36,501 nt of DNA, from positions 1 to 36,501 of the IMG/VR virus record IMGVR_UViG_3300031857_000610, one strand, 5' to 3'. How positions within the stretch are numbered: position 1 is the first letter of the stretch; each line of letters begins with the position of its first letter. Both the position numbers and the translations under genes were made by a program. The DNA comes from a virus. Below, piece after piece: positions 11,210-33,517 of this stretch. The notes under the pieces are model-generated. The model worked only from the letters and a program-made list of their open reading frames with translations, made no database searches and was not told the DNA's origin.

Positions 11210-13876
11210 ATGAGCTATGTTGATGCATGGTTCGACCGCGACAACGATATTATTCGTGTGGTTGAACGCAACAAAAAAGGCGACAGAGAATTTAGAGATA
11301 TTCCTGTACGTCACACACTTTATGTTAAAGACCCTAAGGGTAAACATCTATCAATTTACGGTGAAGCAGTAAGCCGTATTGTTTGTAAAAACACAAAAGA
11401 ATTACGTAAAGAGCAAGCCATTAATAGTGGCAAAACTCTGTACGAAGCAGATATAAATCCAATATTTGTTTGCTTGAGTGAAAACTATCTCAATCAAGAT
11501 GCTCCGAAATTAAATGTAGCATTTTTCGATATTGAGGTAGACTTTGATCCTGAACGCGGCTATGCAAGTCCAGACGATGCGTTTATGCCAATCACCGCCA
11601 TTGCCGTTCACTTGCAATGGTTAGATACTATGATTTGTTTGGCAATTCCTCCTAAAAAAGTTAGTATGGAAGATGCTAAAGAAATGGTCAAAGAATTTCC
11701 TAATACTTATTTGTTTGACAATGAAGCAGAGTTGTTAGACATGTTTTTGGATTTAATTAAAGATGCCGATGTGCTAACTGGCTGGAACAGTGAAGGATTT
11801 GATATTCCTTATACTACTAACCGTGTTACTAAAGTCTTATCAAAAGAAGACACAAGACGTTTTTGTTTGTTTGAACAATTTCCACGCAAACGTGAATATG
11901 AAAAATTTGGACGTACAGCAACAACTTATGATTTTATTGGTCGCGTACACGTAGACTATCTTGAACTTTATAGGAAATACACATATGAAGAAAGACACTC
12001 CTATCGATTGGATGCCATCGCGGAATACGAGCTGGGTGAAAGAAAAACTCAGTATGAAGGAACTTTGGACCAACTCTACAACAACGATTTTAAAACGTTC
12101 GTCGAATACAACAGACAAGACTGTGCGCTATTGGACAGACTTGATAAAAAATTAAAATTCCTAGATCTTGCTAATACACTGGCACATGAAAATACAGTAT
12201 TGCTTCAAACAACGATGGGTGCTGTTGCTGTAACTGAACAGGCTATTATTAACGAAGCGCATCGCAGAGGATTTGTAGTTCCTAATCGTCCTAAGATGAG
12301 TGAGCGAGAAGATACAGCGGCAGCAGGTGCGTATGTTGCGTATCCTAAAGAAGGCATTCAAGACTGGGTTGGTTCGCTGGACATTAACAGTCTATATCCC
12401 AGTGCCATTCGTGCATTGAACATGGGTCCAGAAACTATTGTTGGACAATTACGTCAAACAATGACAGAAGAATTCTTACAAAGCCAAATGGCAAAAGGTA
12501 AGAGTTTTGCGGCGGCGTGGGAAGGCGTTTTTGGATCATTAGAATACACTGCTGTAATGAATCAAGAGATTGGTTCAGATATTACTATCGACTGGGAAGA
12601 TGGAACTAGTGATGTTGTATCGGCGGCAGAAGTTTATAGATTAATTTTTGAAAGTAATCAGCCTTGGATGCTTTCAGCTAACGGTACTATCTTTACCTAT
12701 GAAAAAGAAGGTATTATTCCAGGGCTACTTAAACGCTGGTATGCAGAACGTAAAGAGATGCAGGCCAAACTAAAGGAGGCTATCAATGCTGGTAACAAAA
12801 TTGAAGAAGAATATTGGGATAAGAGACAGTTGGTTAAAAAGATTAACCTTAACTCGCTCTATGGTGCCATTCTCAATCCTGGCTGTCGCTTTTTTGATAA
12901 GCGTATTGGGCAATCTACAACTCTTACAGGTCGACAGATCGCCAAACACATGGCTGGAAAAGTCAATGAAATCATTGCGGGAGAATATAACCATGTGGGC
13001 AAAGCCATTATCTACGGAGACACAGATTCCTGTTATTTTAGTGCTTACAAAACACTAAAGAAAGAAATTGATGCTGGACATGTTCCATGGACTAAAGAAA
13101 CAGTTATACAGTTGTATGATCAAATTGGTGAAGAAGTAAACACTACTTTTCCGCAGTTTATGTTAGATGCGTTTCACGTACCTAAGACTCGCGGAGAGGT
13201 TATTAAAGCAGGACGCGAAATTGTTGGTAGTAAAAGTCTATTCATTACTAAAAAGCGTTATGCCGTTCTTTACTATGACAAAGAAGGTAAACGAACAGAC
13301 CTAGAAGGTAAGCCTGGTAAGATCAAAGCTATGGGATTAGATCTTAAACGCAGTGACACTCCAGAATTTATTCAAAACTTCTTAAGTGACATTTTAGAAA
13401 AAGTATTAACTGGTGCAACCGAACAAGATGTGTTAGATCATATTACACATTTTCGTACAGCATTTAAAGCCCGACCTGGTTGGGAGAAAGGAAGTCCTAA
13501 ACGTGCAAACAACATTACAGAATACGAAAGTAAAGAGAAGAAAGCTGGCAAGGCAAATATGCCTGGTCATGTTAGAGCAAGCATTAATTGGAATACGCTC
13601 AAAAGAATGTACGGAGACAAATACTCCATGTCCATTACCGATGGACAAAAAGTAATTGTTTGTAAACTAAAACAAAATCCCATGGGCTTTACTAGTGTTG
13701 CATATCCAGTAGATGAATTACGTTTGCCACAGTGGTTTAAAGATTTACCTTTTGACCACGAAGAAATGGAACAAACCATTATTGATAATAAATTGGGTAA
13801 TCTTATTGGTGTACTAAATTGGGATATTCGAAGTACAGAAGAAAAAAATACATTTAACAGTTTATTCGAGTTTTAA
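11210..13876 (+). CDS. 43: family B DNA polymerase with 3'-5' exonuclease (T4 gp43)
   Basis: At 888 residues it matches T4 gp43 (898). All expected motifs are visible: Exo I FFDIEVD (about residue 105), Exo II LTGWNSEGFDIPY (about 188), Exo III YNRQDCALLD (about 299), polymerase motif A DINSLYPSAIRALNMGP (about 391), motif B KKINLNSLYGAILN (about 543), motif C IYGDTDSCYF (about 601) and the KKRY thumb motif (about 681). It is the replicative polymerase, acting with the clamp encoded 0.8 kb downstream. The last residues NTFNSLFEF resemble the clamp-binding C-terminal peptide of gp43-type polymerases. No intein or intron interrupts it. The GGAGAG ribosome binding site is six bases from the ATG. 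Confidence 0.97.
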   Translation: MSYVDAWFDRDNDIIRVVERNKKGDREFRDIPVRHTLYVKDPKGKHLSIYGEAVSRIVCKNTKELRKEQAINSGKTLYEADINPIFVCLSENYLNQDAPKLNVAFFDIEVDFDPERGYASPDDAFMPITAIAVHLQWLDTMICLAIPPKKVSMEDAKEMVKEFPNTYLFDNEAELLDMFLDLIKDADVLTGWNSEGFDIPYTTNRVTKVLSKEDTRRFCLFEQFPRKREYEKFGRTATTYDFIGRVHVDYLELYRKYTYEERHSYRLDAIAEYELGERKTQYEGTLDQLYNNDFKTFVEYNRQDCALLDRLDKKLKFLDLANTLAHENTVLLQTTMGAVAVTEQAIINEAHRRGFVVPNRPKMSEREDTAAAGAYVAYPKEGIQDWVGSLDINSLYPSAIRALNMGPETIVGQLRQTMTEEFLQSQMAKGKSFAAAWEGVFGSLEYTAVMNQEIGSDITIDWEDGTSDVVSAAEVYRLIFESNQPWMLSANGTIFTYEKEGIIPGLLKRWYAERKEMQAKLKEAINAGNKIEEEYWDKRQLVKKINLNSLYGAILNPGCRFFDKRIGQSTTLTGRQIAKHMAGKVNEIIAGEYNHVGKAIIYGDTDSCYFSAYKTLKKEIDAGHVPWTKETVIQLYDQIGEEVNTTFPQFMLDAFHVPKTRGEVIKAGREIVGSKSLFITKKRYAVLYYDKEGKRTDLEGKPGKIKAMGLDLKRSDTPEFIQNFLSDILEKVLTGATEQDVLDHITHFRTAFKARPGWEKGSPKRANNITEYESKEKKAGKANMPGHVRASINWNTLKRMYGDKYSMSITDGQKVIVCKLKQNPMGFTSVAYPVDELRLPQWFKDLPFDHEEMEQTIIDNKLGNLIGVLNWDIRSTEEKNTFNSLFEF

Positions 13877-24446: not shown

Positions 24447-25289
24447 TTGACAAAAGCAGAATTTAAACCAGATCCTATTATCAACACACCGGTTGATAAA
24501 GAATTTGTTCCAGAAACATTTGAAGACAAATACGTACCTTTGCCGCAAAAAGTTTATGTAAAAGCCGGCGAAATGATGAGCGATAAAGGATACGAAGAAA
24601 CTTATCTAGCAGATGCTATTCGTTTTAAAATGAAACGTGATAAAAAACGTTTCTGGGCTGGAGATAATATCAGTGAGTATATTCTTGACGAAAGAATGAA
24701 AGAACAGCTAATTGACGAAGCTACCGATGCTTTTGAAACTGTATTAGACAGACTGTTAATTGATCGTGAAAACGATCCTAATAGTCAAGGCACAGCACGT
24801 CGCCTAGCTAAAATGTACTTCAACGAAATTATGGCAGGGCGATATGAACCGAAGCCAGACGCAACAGCGTTTCCAAATGATTCGGAGGACCGCTACGAAG
24901 GCATGTTGGTTGTACGCAGCGAGCTTCGTTCTATGTGTAGCCATCATCATCAGCCTGTTACTGGTGTTGCTTACATTGGTATCATTGCGGCTCAAAAACT
25001 TATTGGCTTATCTAAATACACACGTATTGCACAATGGTGTGCCCGTCGAGGAACTCTACAAGAAGAACTCTGCAACGACATTGCTAGAGAAATTGAACGT
25101 GCGACAGGAGCAAAAGATCTAGGTGTATATATTCAGGCAACACACGGTTGCTGTGAGAATCGTGGTATTATGGCACATTCTAGTCTAACACAGACTACTG
25201 TACTTAAAGGTGCTTTTAAAGATGATATGGGTACTAAGAAAGAATTTATGGATAATATTAAAATGCAACAGGAGTTTGCACCGCGATGA
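24447..25289 (+). CDS. folE: GTP cyclohydrolase I (FolE), TTG start
   Basis: The start is TTG 24447, the only codon correctly spaced from CGGAG. The 280-residue protein converts GTP to dihydroneopterin triphosphate. Zinc ligands are visible: Cys164 and His167 in MCSHHHQPV, and Cys235 in THGCCENRG. Also present are QGTARRLAKMYFNEI, the family TPxRxAxMY segment, and LIGLSKYTRIAQWCARR, the segment before the usual QxQExL helix. The first 80 residues are an N-terminal extension compared with bacterial FolE (about 220). In this genome it most likely feeds the 7-deazaguanine pathway with QueE and the T-fold candidate, rather than folate synthesis. The assignment is firm. Confidence 0.95.
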   Translation: MTKAEFKPDPIINTPVDKEFVPETFEDKYVPLPQKVYVKAGEMMSDKGYEETYLADAIRFKMKRDKKRFWAGDNISEYILDERMKEQLIDEATDAFETVLDRLLIDRENDPNSQGTARRLAKMYFNEIMAGRYEPKPDATAFPNDSEDRYEGMLVVRSELRSMCSHHHQPVTGVAYIGIIAAQKLIGLSKYTRIAQWCARRGTLQEELCNDIAREIERATGAKDLGVYIQATHGCCENRGIMAHSSLTQTTVLKGAFKDDMGTKKEFMDNIKMQQEFAPR

Positions 25290-25884: not shown

Positions 25885-26102
25885 ATACAGCTAAAGACAT
25901 AGCAGATGAACTTTTTAGAAAAATGAAATCTATGCAGAAATTTCAAATTAAAAGAGATGTGCCAGAAAATTGGATTCCAAACGGTCGTGTGCCATTTGAT
26001 ATTCACATAAAAAATGGTGTCGCTACATTTGATGTATATGCAGAAAGTTATATTGATGCAGAAGATCAAATAACACAATATTTGGAACAAGATGATGAGT
26101 AA
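25881..26102 (+). CDS. small phage protein
   Basis: The 73-residue soluble protein has an N-terminal helix (DIADELFRKMKSMQKFQI), a middle beta region (VPFDIHIKNGVATFDVYA) and an acidic end (EDQITQYLEQDDE). No motif is recognised. ATGA overlap before it and an 11-nt overlap with queE after it indicate co-translation with QueE. Confidence 0.6.
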   Translation: MNTAKDIADELFRKMKSMQKFQIKRDVPENWIPNGRVPFDIHIKNGVATFDVYAESYIDAEDQITQYLEQDDE

Positions 26103-26949
26103 AATTAAAATAGCAGAATTATTTTATAGCGTACAAGGCGAAGGACGGTACATGGGTGTTCCGTCTGTTTTCTTACGTACATTTGGTTGCAACTTTAAGT
26201 GCGCTGGCTTTGGTATGCCTAAAGGTCAATTGAGCACAGAAGTTGAAGCAATAGCAAACAGAATTTCAGAATTTAAACAGTATGAAGAACTTCCATTGGT
26301 ATCTACTGGTTGCGATAGTTATGCTAGTTGGGACCCACGTTTTAAGGACCTTAGTCCTATGCTTACAACAGACGCCATCGCAGATAGAATTGCGGAGATA
26401 TTGCCCTACAAAAAGTGGGAAGACGAACACTTAGTTATTACAGGCGGTGAACCGTTACTAGGTTGGCAACGTGCTTATCCTGATTTGTTAAGTCATCCTA
26501 AAATGGCAGATTTAAAAGAAATTACGTTTGAAACAAACGGAACTCAAGAATTAACAGAAGAATTTAAAGATTATTTAATACAATGGCAAATGCCAGACTT
26601 TGATAAAAATAGAGAAATTACATTTAGTGTCAGTGCTAAACTAAGCTGTAGCGGTGAAGCAAGGCATGAGGCTATCCGGCCAGAAATTGTTTGTTCATAT
26701 CAAGACGTTGGCTACACATATCTTAAGTTTGTTATAGCAACAGAAGAAGATGCAGAAGAAGCAATTGAAACCGCAGATATCTATCGCGAAAACGGTTTTA
26801 CAGGCCCTGTTTATCTTATGCCTGTTGGAGGTGTTGAAAGTGTGTACACCCTAAATAATCGTCGTGTAGCAGAGCTTGCGATGAAAAACGGATTGCGCTA
26901 CAGCGACAGGCTACAAGTACCATTATTTAAAAATGAGTGGGGAACATAA
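26092..26949 (+). CDS. queE: 7-carboxy-7-deazaguanine synthase QueE (radical SAM), with expanded cluster loop
   Basis: The 285-residue protein shows YSVQGEGRYMGVPSVFLRTFGCNFKC at the N-terminus (QGEG and the FxRxxGCN of QueE), VITGGEPLLG (SAM-binding GGEP), FETNGTQ and FSVSAKLS. QueE makes CDG from carboxy-tetrahydropterin using a 4Fe-4S cluster and SAM. The cluster motif is unusual: Cys33 and Cys37 are followed by 36 residues before Cys74 (STGCDSYASW), which replaces the usual Cx2C third cysteine. Expanded QueE loops of this sort occur in T4-like phages, from memory. Either ATG 26092 or 26095 may be the start. The next gene starts on the last base of its stop (TAATG). Confidence 0.9.
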   Translation: MMSKIKIAELFYSVQGEGRYMGVPSVFLRTFGCNFKCAGFGMPKGQLSTEVEAIANRISEFKQYEELPLVSTGCDSYASWDPRFKDLSPMLTTDAIADRIAEILPYKKWEDEHLVITGGEPLLGWQRAYPDLLSHPKMADLKEITFETNGTQELTEEFKDYLIQWQMPDFDKNREITFSVSAKLSCSGEARHEAIRPEIVCSYQDVGYTYLKFVIATEEDAEEAIETADIYRENGFTGPVYLMPVGGVESVYTLNNRRVAELAMKNGLRYSDRLQVPLFKNEWGT

Positions 26950-29452: not shown

Positions 29453-29607
29453 ACAAATGTAATGCTTGCGGCTTAGAAATTAAAGACTACGGTGTTGGAT
29501 GCGATTGGATGCAAGGCCGTTGTCCTCATCGTACACCTATGTTGACAGATTACCACTTTAGATACTATAACCTAGTACAGTGGATCAAGAGCTTTTTTAA
29601 GAGATAA
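29449..29607 (+). CDS. 52-residue zinc-binding-type mini protein
   Basis: ATG 29449 overlaps the previous stop (ATGA) and the frame runs 52 codons to TAA 29605-29607. The product has CNACGLEIKDYGVGC, then QGRCPHR, giving CxxC-x10-C-x6-CPH, a zinc-ribbon-like arrangement (four Cys, one His), and an aromatic basic tail (FRYYNLVQWIKSFFKR). The overlap, the cysteine spacing and a following promoter element support a real gene. A small nucleic-acid or protein-binding regulator is plausible. Confidence 0.7.
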   Translation: MNKCNACGLEIKDYGVGCDWMQGRCPHRTPMLTDYHFRYYNLVQWIKSFFKR

Positions 29608-29625
29608 ATATATGCGTACATTACT
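29598..29625 (+). promoter_or_regulatory. late-promoter-like element, copy 1
   Basis: GATAAATA (29603-29610) matches the T4-family late -10 and is followed by TATGCGTA. The 28 bases 29598-29625 recur at 30370-30397 with one mismatch. Both copies overlap the stop codon of one gene and precede the next. A weak stem (ACTA/TAGT with GG/CC) follows before the AGGGGA site of the gene at 29661. Confidence 0.5.
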
Positions 29626-29660: not shown

Positions 29661-30140
29661 ATGACAGAGATACATGCAAAACCTATCGTAGATGGAAAAT
29701 TTTGGATCGTTGAAGAAAACGGTACTAAGATTGCCACACTACACAAAAAAGAAAATAACAAATTTATTTTAAGCAGTACTAATGGTGAGGTAATGTTTAA
29801 TAAAAAAGACGATCTCACTAAAGAATTTGGCAAGGACTTTTTTTTAAAAAATACCAAAGTAAAAGTTACAGCGGCGGAACCAAACGAATGCCATGGTTAC
29901 CCCACAAGTTGTAAACCATATAATCCCATGTATGATGTTCAACGTCGACTTCCTTTGTTTACAAAATCAAATGCTAGTCAAAGTTTATATTGTGCTGGTT
30001 ATTATATAATTAAATTTGATAAAGGATGGGTTAAGAGCCATTGTCCTAAACTTATCACTATTGAACGTTATCCGTATAAAGGACCGTTTAAAACAGAATT
30101 TGAAATGAAACAGGTATTGTCTAATGCAAAATCAAATTAA
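29661..30140 (+). CDS. conserved T4-like phage protein, mixed alpha/beta
   Basis: The ATG has AGGGGA six bases upstream. The 159-residue protein starts AKPIVDGKFWIVEENGTKIATL, a beta-rich segment, and has HGYPTSCKPYNPMYDVQRRLPLFTKS and YCAGYYIIKFDKGWVKSHCPKLITIERYPYKGPF, which I recall as conserved in T4-like cyanophages. The Gly-Tyr-Pro, Cys and Tyr-rich motif could form a metal- or sugar-binding surface, but no function is known to me. The gene is under the late-promoter-like element at 29603. Confidence 0.7.
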   Translation: MTEIHAKPIVDGKFWIVEENGTKIATLHKKENNKFILSSTNGEVMFNKKDDLTKEFGKDFFLKNTKVKVTAAEPNECHGYPTSCKPYNPMYDVQRRLPLFTKSNASQSLYCAGYYIIKFDKGWVKSHCPKLITIERYPYKGPFKTEFEMKQVLSNAKSN

Positions 30141-30372
30141 TTTAACACCTTTTACACAATTTATTCAACAAGTAAGAAGTGCTGAATCAAATCAATCTAA
30201 AGAAATTAAGTTATCTATACAACAAGCTCGAATGTTAAGTCTAGCATTAGCAGAGTGTATGGATAAACTTAATAAAGACTACGAAACGCTGTTTAACGAG
30301 CTTAAACGCAGTCAGGTAACAGAAGTTGTTACAATATCTATGGATGGCGGTGGGTTCGAAGACAAGAAATAA
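30124..30372 (+). CDS. small helical phage protein
   Basis: The 82-residue protein is mainly alpha helical (FTQFIQQVRSAESNQSKEI, LSIQQARMLSLALAECMDKL, KDYETLFNELKRSQVTEV) with a Gly-rich acidic end. No motif is recognised. It overlaps the previous gene by 17 nt, and its stop codon lies at the start of the second late-promoter-like element. Confidence 0.62.
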   Translation: MQNQINLTPFTQFIQQVRSAESNQSKEIKLSIQQARMLSLALAECMDKLNKDYETLFNELKRSQVTEVVTISMDGGGFEDKK

Positions 30373-30408
30373 GAGATAAATATATGCGTATATTACTTGG
30401 ATACGCAT
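30370..30408 (+). promoter_or_regulatory. late-promoter-like element, copy 2, with start-codon-sequestering hairpin
   Basis: GATAAATA (30375-30382) lies in the second copy of the 28-nt repeat. A perfect 8-bp inverted repeat follows: ATGCGTAT (30384-30391) and ATACGCAT (30401-30408), ending one base before the ATG at 30410. A transcript read through from upstream would form the hairpin over the ribosome binding region, whereas one starting about 30388 from the late promoter would lack most of the 5' arm. This is the arrangement of T4 genes e and soc. Confidence 0.5.
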
Positions 30409-30409
30409 T

Positions 30410-30694
30410 ATGTCAAGACCTAAACCAAAAATATTGTTAGAACATACTAACAAAAAAACTTACAAATCAGAACAAATTTTAGAAGCTGATGCTATATGGG
30501 CAGTCTTCTATAAAAATGAGCCTTTTAATTTAAAGAGCTTTAATAGTCTCACATCGTACCCCGGACCAAAATATAAAAAAGTTTCTTTTTCAAATCCTGG
30601 CCATGCACATAATTTGGCAAAGAAATTAAATCTCACATTTGGAACAGAAGAGTTCCAAGTTGTTAAATTAACGCAGGGCACCATTGTAAAATGA
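30410..30694 (+). CDS. conserved small phage protein
   Basis: The 94-residue protein opens MSRPKPKILLEHTNKKTYKSEQILEAD and contains IWAVFYKNEPFNLKSFNSL and GPKYKKVSFSNPGHAHNLAKKLNLTFG, segments I recall from T4-like cyanophages. The structure is likely beta with a C-terminal helix. No function known. The upstream hairpin and late-promoter element suggest translation is limited to late transcripts. Its end overlaps the next gene (ATGA). Confidence 0.7.
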   Translation: MSRPKPKILLEHTNKKTYKSEQILEADAIWAVFYKNEPFNLKSFNSLTSYPGPKYKKVSFSNPGHAHNLAKKLNLTFGTEEFQVVKLTQGTIVK

Positions 30695-31098
30695 TTTCTC
30701 GAGACGTATTAACAAAAATATTTTTGCAACAATGGGGCAAAACTATTGACGAAACAAATGTTAATATGTATTCAAGAACATGGTGGCAATCAAACCGCGT
30801 AGGTAAAGACAACGCCTTTCGTCTAAGCGATAAAGGCTACGAATTTTTAGTAGATGAATTGGAACTTAAAGCATACGAGGTTCCGTTTACAGAACCAATT
30901 GAACTAAGTCCTCAAACCATTATATTTTTGGAAAGGTATATCGATTGTCCTTATTACCTTACAAACCAAAGTATTACTGTCTTTTCTGAAAAAAAGAGTT
31001 TTGAGCTATATTTGTTTTCGGACGATATCCGAAAATTTGGACTTATAAAAGCCATGAACGAACGCCAAAAAGATTTGGACAACGAAAAATCTAGTTGA
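30691..31098 (+). CDS. conserved phage protein
   Basis: The 135-residue soluble protein starts MISRDVLTKIFLQQWGKTIDETNVNMYSRTWW and continues with FRLSDKGYEFLVDELELKAYEVPFTEPIELSPQTIIFLERYIDCPYYL, a helix-loop series that resembles a winged-helix (LSDKGYEFL) but lacks an obvious recognition helix signature. A beta-rich C-terminal segment follows (SITVFSEKKSFELYLFSDD). Function unknown. ATGA overlap with the previous gene; the promoter for moxR overlaps its last codons. Confidence 0.65.
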   Translation: MISRDVLTKIFLQQWGKTIDETNVNMYSRTWWQSNRVGKDNAFRLSDKGYEFLVDELELKAYEVPFTEPIELSPQTIIFLERYIDCPYYLTNQSITVFSEKKSFELYLFSDDIRKFGLIKAMNERQKDLDNEKSS

Positions 31099-31123
31099 CA
31101 CTTTACTGGTGTGGTGCTATAAT
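31095..31123 (+). promoter_or_regulatory. perfect-consensus sigma70 promoter for moxR-like gene
   Basis: TTGACA (31095-31100), a 17-nt spacer and TATAAT (31118-31123), with an extended TGC before the -10 (31115-31117). It overlaps the stop codon of the gene before. The leader of about 50 nt ends with AAAGGA ahead of the ATG at 31179. Confidence 0.93.
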
Positions 31124-31178: not shown

Positions 31179-32270
31179 ATGGCAGAAATTCTTAGCCGCA
31201 CCGTTGGACCCAAAGGCGCAAAACGTTCATTGCGTAAGGCATTTAAAAACAAGCGTCCAATTTTCTTGTGGGGTCCTCCAGGAATTGGTAAGTCTGATAT
31301 TATTAAACAACTTGGTACTGAGCTCGATGCTCATGTTATCGATGTTCGTCTTAGTCTTTGGGAACCTACTGATATTAAAGGTATCCCATATTTTGATTCA
31401 AATGTAAATAAAATGGTTTGGGCTCCTCCGCTCGAACTGCCTGACGCTGAAATGGCAAAACAACATAAACAGATTGTCTTGTTTATGGACGAAATGAACT
31501 CTGCGGCGCCTGCTGTACAAGCGGCGGCTTATCAGCTAGTTTTGAACCGCCGTGTCGGCACTTATCAGCTTCCAGACAATGTCGTAATGGTTGCTGCTGG
31601 TAATCGCGAAAGCGACAAGGGTGTTACTTATCGTATGCCCGCTCCGTTGGCAAACCGCTTTGTACACTTGGAAATGGCTATTGATTGGGATGACTGGCAA
31701 GAGTGGGCTGTAGAAAATCGTGTCCACAAAGACGTAGTTGGTTTCCTTACTTTCTCTAAGAAAGACCTGTACGACTTTGATCCAAAGTCTAGTTCACGTG
31801 CATTTGCTACTCCACGTAGCTGGTCCTTTGTTAGCGAGCTGTTGCACGACGATGACACTGATGCAGAAACACTGACTGATTTGACTTCAGGCGCTGTTGG
31901 TGAAGGACTTGCTGTTAAGTTTATGGCACATCGTAAACATGCCAGCAAAATGCCAAACCCAACAGACATTTTGTCAGGCAAAGTTAAGAAGATGGATTCA
32001 AAAGAAATCTCAGCTCAATATTCGCTTGTTATTTCATTGTGCTACGAATTGAAAGATTTGTGCGATAAAAACGACAAAAATTGGAATTCAAAAGTTAATA
32101 ACTTCTTCCAATTTATGATGGATAATTTTGAAACTGAGTTGGTAATTATGGGTACTAAATTGGCATTGTCAACATATAAGTTGCCGTTGGATCCAGATGA
32201 AATTGCCTGCTTTGATGACTTCCATGCAAAATTTGGTAAGTATATTGCACAGGCTACCGAAAAGCAATAA
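31179..32270 (+). CDS. MoxR-type AAA+ ATPase
   Basis: The 363-residue protein shows Walker A WGPPGIGKSD (residues about 31-40), DVRLSLWEPTDIKGIP, Walker B QIVLFMDEMNSA, VAAGN for sensor 1 and an Arg-finger region RMPAPLANRFVH. MoxR AAA+ proteins act as chaperone-like motors for partner VWA proteins, remodelling enzymes or inserting cofactors. The partner lies immediately downstream (VWA plus HExxH protein), as in bacterial MoxR/VWA pairs such as RavA-ViaA. It has its own promoter. Such a pair in a phage has no clear substrate. Confidence 0.9.
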   Translation: MAEILSRTVGPKGAKRSLRKAFKNKRPIFLWGPPGIGKSDIIKQLGTELDAHVIDVRLSLWEPTDIKGIPYFDSNVNKMVWAPPLELPDAEMAKQHKQIVLFMDEMNSAAPAVQAAAYQLVLNRRVGTYQLPDNVVMVAAGNRESDKGVTYRMPAPLANRFVHLEMAIDWDDWQEWAVENRVHKDVVGFLTFSKKDLYDFDPKSSSRAFATPRSWSFVSELLHDDDTDAETLTDLTSGAVGEGLAVKFMAHRKHASKMPNPTDILSGKVKKMDSKEISAQYSLVISLCYELKDLCDKNDKNWNSKVNNFFQFMMDNFETELVIMGTKLALSTYKLPLDPDEIACFDDFHAKFGKYIAQATEKQ

Positions 32271-32329: not shown

Positions 32330-33517
32330 ATGGCACACGCCGATCCAATTATTGATAAGATTATTGTAGCACGAGTAGGCTTGCTACTACGCCACCCGTT
32401 CTTTGGTAATCTTGCTACACGTATGGGTATCAAAGAAGCAGACGATTGGCTTCCTACTGCTGCAACAGACGGTCGTAACATTTATTTTAATCGTGAATTT
32501 TTTACACCTCTTACTGTTAAACAAGTAGAGTTTGTAATTGCACACGAAATCCTTCATGCTGTTTTTGATCACATGGGTCGACGCGAAGGTCGTGATCCAA
32601 AGATTTTTAATATTGCCTGCGACTTTGCTGTTAACGGACAAATTGTACGAGATCGAATTGGTGATCACAATTTGCCTGATATTAAAATTTTCCATGATTC
32701 AAAATATTACGGCTGGAGTGCAGAACAAGTCTATGATGAAATTTACGAAAAGTATGACGAAGAACAACTAGCCGCTTTAGGTCAGATGCTCGATGAACAT
32801 TTAGATTCTGACGGCAACAACGGCAAAGATGGTCAGCCAAAATATACCAAAGAAGAATTGAAAAAAATTCGTGATGAAATGCGTGAAGCTGTAATGCAGG
32901 CTGCACAAGCGGCAGGTGCAGGTAATGTACCTGCAAGTATTCAACGCATGATTAAAGAACTTACAGAGCCTAAGATGAACTGGCGTGAAATTTTGCGCCA
33001 GCAAATTCAAAGCACTATTAAGAACGACTATACCTTTATGCGTCCTAATCGTAAGGGTTGGCATATGAGTGCAATTTTGCCAGGCACTAACTACGAAGAA
33101 ACAATTGATATTTGTGTATCGATTGATATGTCTGGTTCTATTGGTGATGAACAAGCCAAAGATTTCCTAAGCGAAATTAAAGGCATTATGGAAGAGTACA
33201 AAGACTTTAAAATTAAAGTTTGGTGTTTTGATACCGATGTCTATAACGAAGCAGACTTTGACGGCTACACAATGGACACGTTTATGGAATATGAACCAAT
33301 GGGTGGTGGCGGTACTGAATTTATGGTCAATTGGGACTATATGAAAGAGCATCAAATCCAACCTAAAAAGTTTATCATGTTCACAGACGGATATCCTTAT
33401 GGTTCGTGGGGTGACGAATTGTATTGTGATACAGTATTCATCATTCACGGTAATAATAGTATTGTTCCTCCATTTGGTGAGTACGCATACTACGAAGAAG
33501 TTAAAGAAGTTGCATAA
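32330..33517 (+). CDS. VWA-domain protein with HExxH metallopeptidase-like N-terminus
   Basis: The 395-residue protein combines VIAHEILHAVFDHMGRR (residues 69-85; zinc motif HEILH at 72-76) with a C-terminal von Willebrand A domain whose MIDAS is DMSGSIGDE (about 266), plus GGGGTEF and FTDGYP. The HEILH helix is followed by the NIACDFAVNGQI segment seen in DUF2201-like putative metallopeptidase/VWA proteins. It is encoded next to a MoxR ATPase and has GGAGCAACG as ribosome binding site. Such pairs are thought to act as a chaperone system, the VWA part binding metal and substrate. Peptidase activity is unproven. Confidence 0.9.
   Translation: MAHADPIIDKIIVARVGLLLRHPFFGNLATRMGIKEADDWLPTAATDGRNIYFNREFFTPLTVKQVEFVIAHEILHAVFDHMGRREGRDPKIFNIACDFAVNGQIVRDRIGDHNLPDIKIFHDSKYYGWSAEQVYDEIYEKYDEEQLAALGQMLDEHLDSDGNNGKDGQPKYTKEELKKIRDEMREAVMQAAQAAGAGNVPASIQRMIKELTEPKMNWREILRQQIQSTIKNDYTFMRPNRKGWHMSAILPGTNYEETIDICVSIDMSGSIGDEQAKDFLSEIKGIMEEYKDFKIKVWCFDTDVYNEADFDGYTMDTFMEYEPMGGGGTEFMVNWDYMKEHQIQPKKFIMFTDGYPYGSWGDELYCDTVFIIHGNNSIVPPFGEYAYYEEVKEVA

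Follow-up and report, generated by a model that had tools for sequence, protein, structure and literature searches.

A probable T4-type early/late translational switch in the leader of a conserved 94-aa phage gene

The leader of a conserved 94-aa gene in an environmental virus very probably holds an early/late translational switch of the type known from phage T4, formed by a late promoter and a hairpin that reaches the start codon. We analyzed positions 1 to 36,501 of the IMG/VR virus record IMGVR_UViG_3300031857_000610, and this whole stretch of 36,501 nucleotides is called the window below. According to the proposed mechanism, early read-through transcripts coming from upstream would carry both arms of the hairpin, and the closed hairpin over the spacer and the start codon would block initiation at the 94-aa gene. 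The phage late sigma factor would direct RNA polymerase to the GATAAATA promoter, with a start inside the 5' arm; the late RNA would retain about four of the eight 5'-arm bases, the hairpin could not form and translation would proceed. The start site, the early read-through, the repression and the late translation are all steps that we infer. The promoter motif, the conserved and covarying hairpin, the predicted opening energies, a gp55 homologue in relatives, the tight co-directional packing of the genes and the early-type promoters upstream in relatives were computed.

The leader in the window and among relatives

The first-pass annotation of this region had described a late-promoter octamer, a perfect 8-bp hairpin and an ATG in close succession, and all three were found in the sequence at the places it had given (Table 1). 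Within positions 30370-30412, the perfect stem is followed by a single T and then by the ATG. Taken alone, this hairpin is only moderately unusual. Local folding gave an MFE z-score of -1.1, and among 20,000 shuffled leaders 31 had a perfect stem of 8 bp or more that begins 0-5 nt past the octamer; such an 8-bp hairpin stands at 2 of the 82 ORF starts in the window. At about -8 to -10 kcal/mol the stem is of modest stability. When one mismatch was permitted, the octamer showed no excess over chance in the window. Because the hairpin is statistically weak in isolation, the case was built by comparison with relatives.

Table 1. Features of the leader of the 94-aa gene and its surroundings, in window coordinates
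Feature	Position	Strand	Basis
Candidate early sigma-70 promoter, TTGACA-18-TATAAC	29542..29571	+	weak support; not conserved in relatives, may be chance
Co-directional 82-aa ORF, stop 2 nt ahead of the octamer	30124..30372	+	ORF
T4-type late promoter octamer GATAAATA	30375..30382	+	seen in sequence; conserved in leaders; precedes structural genes in two long relatives
Hairpin 5' arm ATGCGTAT	30384..30391	+	sequence, folding, comparison of leaders
Predicted late transcription start, +/- about 2 nt	30388	+	T4 TATA-box spacing rule (PMC2988020)
Hairpin loop, 9 nt	30392..30400	+	sequence, folding
Weak Shine-Dalgarno-like GGA, mostly loop	30399..30401	+	sequence; GGA/AGGA likewise placed in most relatives
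Hairpin 3' arm ATACGCAT, within the spacer ahead of the start codon	30401..30408	+	sequence, folding, covariation
Putatively regulated gene, 94-aa conserved protein MSRPKPKILLEH...	30410..30694	+	ORF; hundreds of relatives
Perfect TTGACA-17-TATAAT sigma-70 promoter ahead of the following operon (MoxR-type ATPase), probably early	31095..31123	+	sequence

The 16-mer GATAAATATATGCGTA was present in more than 120 viral contig stretches at the least, and among the matches listed nearly all precede a gene starting with MSRPKP or a similar sequence. When homologues were sought by the protein instead of the leader, about 600 or more were found. From 244 loci we drew 174 distinct leaders, of which 173 contain the octamer NMTAAATA, in 156 cases as GATAAATA; its distance to the start codon is 25-45 nt in nearly all leaders. 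A stem of at least 6 bp that begins 0-5 nt past the octamer and ends between -3 and +4 of the start codon was found in 149 of 173 leaders, with loops of 6-19 nt that vary in sequence and usually contain GGA or AGGA. The jumbo phages PA5oct, Atu_ph07, SCTP-2 and Phosso retain the octamer and have no canonical stem, which was absent from every named relative identified. A nucleotide search among named phages and a search of Rfam gave no match, and family searches with the 94-aa protein in Pfam, PHROGs, NCBIfam and PDB returned nothing usable. A literature search for transcript 5'-end or translation data on this phage group, including a transcriptome of a relative such as PA5oct, found none.

The window contains a second copy of the promoter and the 5' half, GATAAATATATGCGTACATTACT, at 29598-29625 (27 of 28 positions identical), ahead of the ORF 29661-30140. 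This leader leaves the SD free, with a different hairpin placed between it and the promoter; similar leaders occur at the loci L054, L065 and L071. The second copy, whose 5' half is at 29603, was ruled out as the same kind of switch, with an opening cost of 3.2 vs 2.3 kcal/mol.

Covariation and predicted opening of the start region

For the analysis of covariation, the 3' arm was placed in 134 distinct leaders by a motif blind to the 5' arm of the same row, MAFFT having misaligned it. Stem pair 4 was GC in 94 leaders, AU in 31, GU in 7, and AC and GA in one each, an association with a Fisher p of 2e-22, uncorrected for relatedness. Pair 5 was CG in 124 leaders, CA in 5, UA in 3 and something else in two, while pair 6 was GC in 122, GU in 11 and AC in one. 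A tree of the coding sequence, which is 273 nt long and weakly resolved, implies about 26 changes at pair 4. Seven independent comparisons were well supported; in a mean of 6.3 of these the 3' base goes along with the 5' base, and in none does it go against it (median p 0.03). Conservation together with the covariation of the stem settles the hairpin as real. A functionless chance inverted repeat would agree with the weak statistics of the hairpin in isolation. Against it speaks a stem that is conserved and covaries across well over a hundred distinct leaders, the 134 covarying leaders having already disfavored it, and we assign it a negligible probability.

The inverted repeat might instead act in DNA, as the site of a DNA-binding repressor overlapping the late promoter. 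It adjoins the octamer, and I-TevI does repress its own late promoter through an overlapping operator (PMC2988022). However, the spacing of the arms varies (6-19 nt), G-U combinations appear at pairs 4, 6 and 7, the 3' arm keeps its position relative to the start codon, and members without the canonical hairpin have others in its stead, so that we consider a DNA palindrome highly improbable. The G-U cells and the variable arm spacing suit RNA pairing better than a DNA palindrome, although the greater constancy of the 5' arm could by itself bias the count of G-U combinations.

The first-pass annotation had proposed that read-through transcripts hide the ribosome binding site and that late transcripts expose it. 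Predicted folding of both transcript forms agrees with this: opening the start region of the 149 canonical leaders is predicted to cost 9.9 kcal/mol in the read-through RNA and 3.1 kcal/mol in a late RNA starting 5 nt past the octamer. When the 5' arm was shuffled in the read-through RNA, the cost was 5.3 kcal/mol (n=149). The fall from read-through to late RNA comes sharply as +1 is shifted from 3 to 4 nt past the octamer (in the window from 6.5 to 3.0), which is just short of the start expected from the T4 rule. The same computation applied to T4 genes as yardsticks gave a change from 8.5 to 4.5 kcal/mol for soc and from 15.6 to 3.8 kcal/mol for e. The hiding of the ribosome binding site held for one side of it: in the read-through RNA, the mean pairing probability with the part lost from late RNA was 0.74 for the start codon and spacer and 0.18 for the SD zone. 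It is thus right, by prediction, that the hairpin sequesters the start-codon side, which includes the spacer, whereas the SD-like GGA is mostly in the loop, as in soc.

Among the 24 leaders that lack the canonical stem, 17 have a start region that their own upstream sequence closes more than shuffled versions do (z at least 2), although these 17 amount to about five related clusters plus single cases rather than to as many independent ones. They use other hairpins. In L202 and L241, for example, ACTCAT/ATGAGT pairs across the start codon; in L194, L300 and L304, GCTCAT/ATGAGC closes a long palindrome; and the L360-L382 group has an extended structure in which CGCCA/TGGCG covers the start codon. 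Most of these leaders have their 5' arm around the octamer or upstream of it, where it would be missing from a late transcript. No convincing sequestering structure was found in L127, L192 and L231, nor in the named phages PA5oct, Phosso and SCTP-2. As a control we used the 45 octamer-preceded genes of two long relatives examined for promoters, G001 (200 kb) and G002 (170 kb); their mean z was 0.39, and four of them, including the 94-aa gene, exceeded 2, the 94-aa gene's own z in G001 being only 1.2. In L184, L199, L194 and relatives a perfect palindrome, GTAAACTACGTAGTTTAC or AGTAATATACGTATATTACT, immediately precedes the late promoter; in some leaders, palindromes upstream of the octamer are part of the alternative sequestering structure.

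A start-codon hairpin conserved with one gene for a small protein could also be an RNA operator, bound by a translational repressor such as the 94-aa product itself or a RegA-like protein, and T4 has autoregulators of this sort in gp43 and gp32 (PMC3014915). Protein operators usually keep their loop, whereas here the loop varies in length (6-19 nt) and sequence and the stem varies too; the swap to quite different hairpins fits plain sequestration better, and the late transcript would be without the operator. We therefore regard an RNA operator as very unlikely and retain the early/late switch as the preferred reading.

Late promoter and gene neighborhood

Among the 8-mers enriched ahead of ORFs in G001 and G002, GATAAATA and ATAAATAC rank near the top, and the genes behind these octamers include those for baseplate wedge, baseplate hub, head-tail adaptor, neck, tail tube and virion proteins. 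A late sigma factor of the gp55 family (phrog_234) was detected in 11 of 11 long relatives with E-values of 4.3e-18 or better; the 36-kb window fragment has no gp55 gene. Judged by its sequence context, this group of phages has the octamer as its late-promoter motif. In T4 late promoters the TATA box precedes +1 by about one helical turn (PMC2988020), a spacing that would put the start near 30388.

The full 16-mer occurs once per genome in seven of seven genomes, which means that TATGCGTA is not a general extension of the late promoter. As a part of every late promoter TATGCGTA was ruled out, there being one full copy per genome and other sequence following the other octamers. It could still be argued that only the 5' half matters, with TATGCGTA being a favored initially transcribed sequence or a stabilizer of the late mRNA 5' end and the pairing being secondary. 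The greater constancy of the 5' arm agrees with this, as do L127, L192, L200 and L231, which retain the 5' arm without the 3' arm, and the second 5'-half copy of the window, which lacks the canonical hairpin. Against it, the other late promoters of the same genomes are not followed by TATGCGTA, and the 3' arm has changed along with the 5' arm; we judge a role of the 5' half alone to be very unlikely.

One further leader came up among the late promoters. In G002:C1 near 52493 (L219, about 12490-12540), a long and perfect hairpin, CTCCTAGGTGATA/TATCACCTAGGAG, encloses the GATAAATA of a 592-aa gene and also covers its SD. This gene, about 4.8 kb downstream of the first putative switch, has PHROG matches only of unknown function. 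Its leader is a second, stronger candidate for an early/late switch.

In most leaders no more than about 30 nt separate the end of the upstream ORF from the octamer, and since the upstream ORF of the window stops just ahead of the octamer, transcripts from upstream would run through the hairpin. The sequence at 29542 is the only early promoter candidate near upstream of the gene in the window. Among relatives, no conserved early promoter was found within 1.2 kb upstream (4 of 160 relatives vs 3 of 160 on the antisense strand), and the source of the early RNA is for this reason a point that we infer. A sigma-70 promoter like the one at 31095 was located within 900 nt downstream of the gene in 101 of 152 relatives. 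Perfect sigma-70 promoters on the same strand were found upstream of the gene at 1.8, 5.1 and 9.0 kb in G002 and at 4.4, 8.7, 11.2 and 16.7 kb in G001, and both genomes have more just downstream. The 94-aa gene thus appears, from its sequence surroundings, to be a late gene within an early cluster, which is the setting of the T4 switch genes (PMC2988022).

Other genes of the window include a pair at 31179-32270 and 32330-33517 encoding a MoxR-type ATPase and a DUF2201 (metallopeptidase/VWA) protein, each preceded by a perfect TTGACA-17-TATAAT promoter. GTP cyclohydrolase I is encoded at 24447-25289 and a radical-SAM protein, QueE-like by eye, at 26092-26949; the two possibly belong to a 7-deazaguanine pathway.

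Relation to known switches and meaning for phage gene timing

The first-pass annotation had likened this arrangement to the logic of the T4 genes e, soc and I-TevI, and these precedents are documented (PMC3014915, PMC2988022), with the layout of T4 soc being nearly the same. T4 soc is reported to be a late gene carried on early/middle polycistronic transcripts in which its RBS is sequestered (PMC2988022). In both leaders the octamer is followed 2 nt later by the 5' arm, the SD is in the loop and the 3' arm reaches the start codon; the gene and the arm sequence differ, and the octamer is TATAAATA in soc and GATAAATA here. The regulation of soc was reported from experiment, whereas that of the 94-aa gene is predicted from sequence. 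In the T4 lysozyme gene e, the late promoter likewise overlaps the 5' strand of the hairpin, and early translation is blocked about 100-fold (PMC3014915); unlike the leader of the 94-aa gene, that of e has two late octamers, the SD in the 3' arm and a stronger hairpin. For I-TevI, I-TevII, I-TevIII and segB of T4 and mobE of Aeh1, a hairpin hides the RBS on the early/middle transcript and cannot form on the late one, which is too short (PMC2988022). Those switches control homing endonucleases, whereas the gene described here encodes a conserved protein without a family match, found in hundreds of phage contigs. The mechanism would be of the type of T4 soc, e, I-TevI and Aeh1 mobE, with a layout closest to that of soc. 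The probable mechanism offered in the first-pass annotation is supported, every part that can be tested in sequence being in agreement with it. What is new relative to the T4 cases is a gene without a family match and an unusually large comparative record.

The T4 examples comprise a handful of genes in T4 and its close relatives, while here there are well over a hundred distinct leaders far from T4, with covariation and alternative architectures, always ahead of one conserved gene. This points to the 94-aa protein as a product that the phage should not make early and for which timing seems to matter. It also suggests a search rule for timing-controlled late genes in uncultured phages, namely to look for start-codon hairpins with a late octamer within or behind their 5' arm. 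We propose tentatively, and with somewhat less than even confidence, that strong selection for a late-only 94-aa protein has kept this switch, or rebuilt it with unrelated hairpins, across a very large T4-related group, and that other late genes in early clusters, such as the 592-aa gene of G002, share its logic. If true, environmental phages would have a general layer of gene timing that is as yet uncharted.
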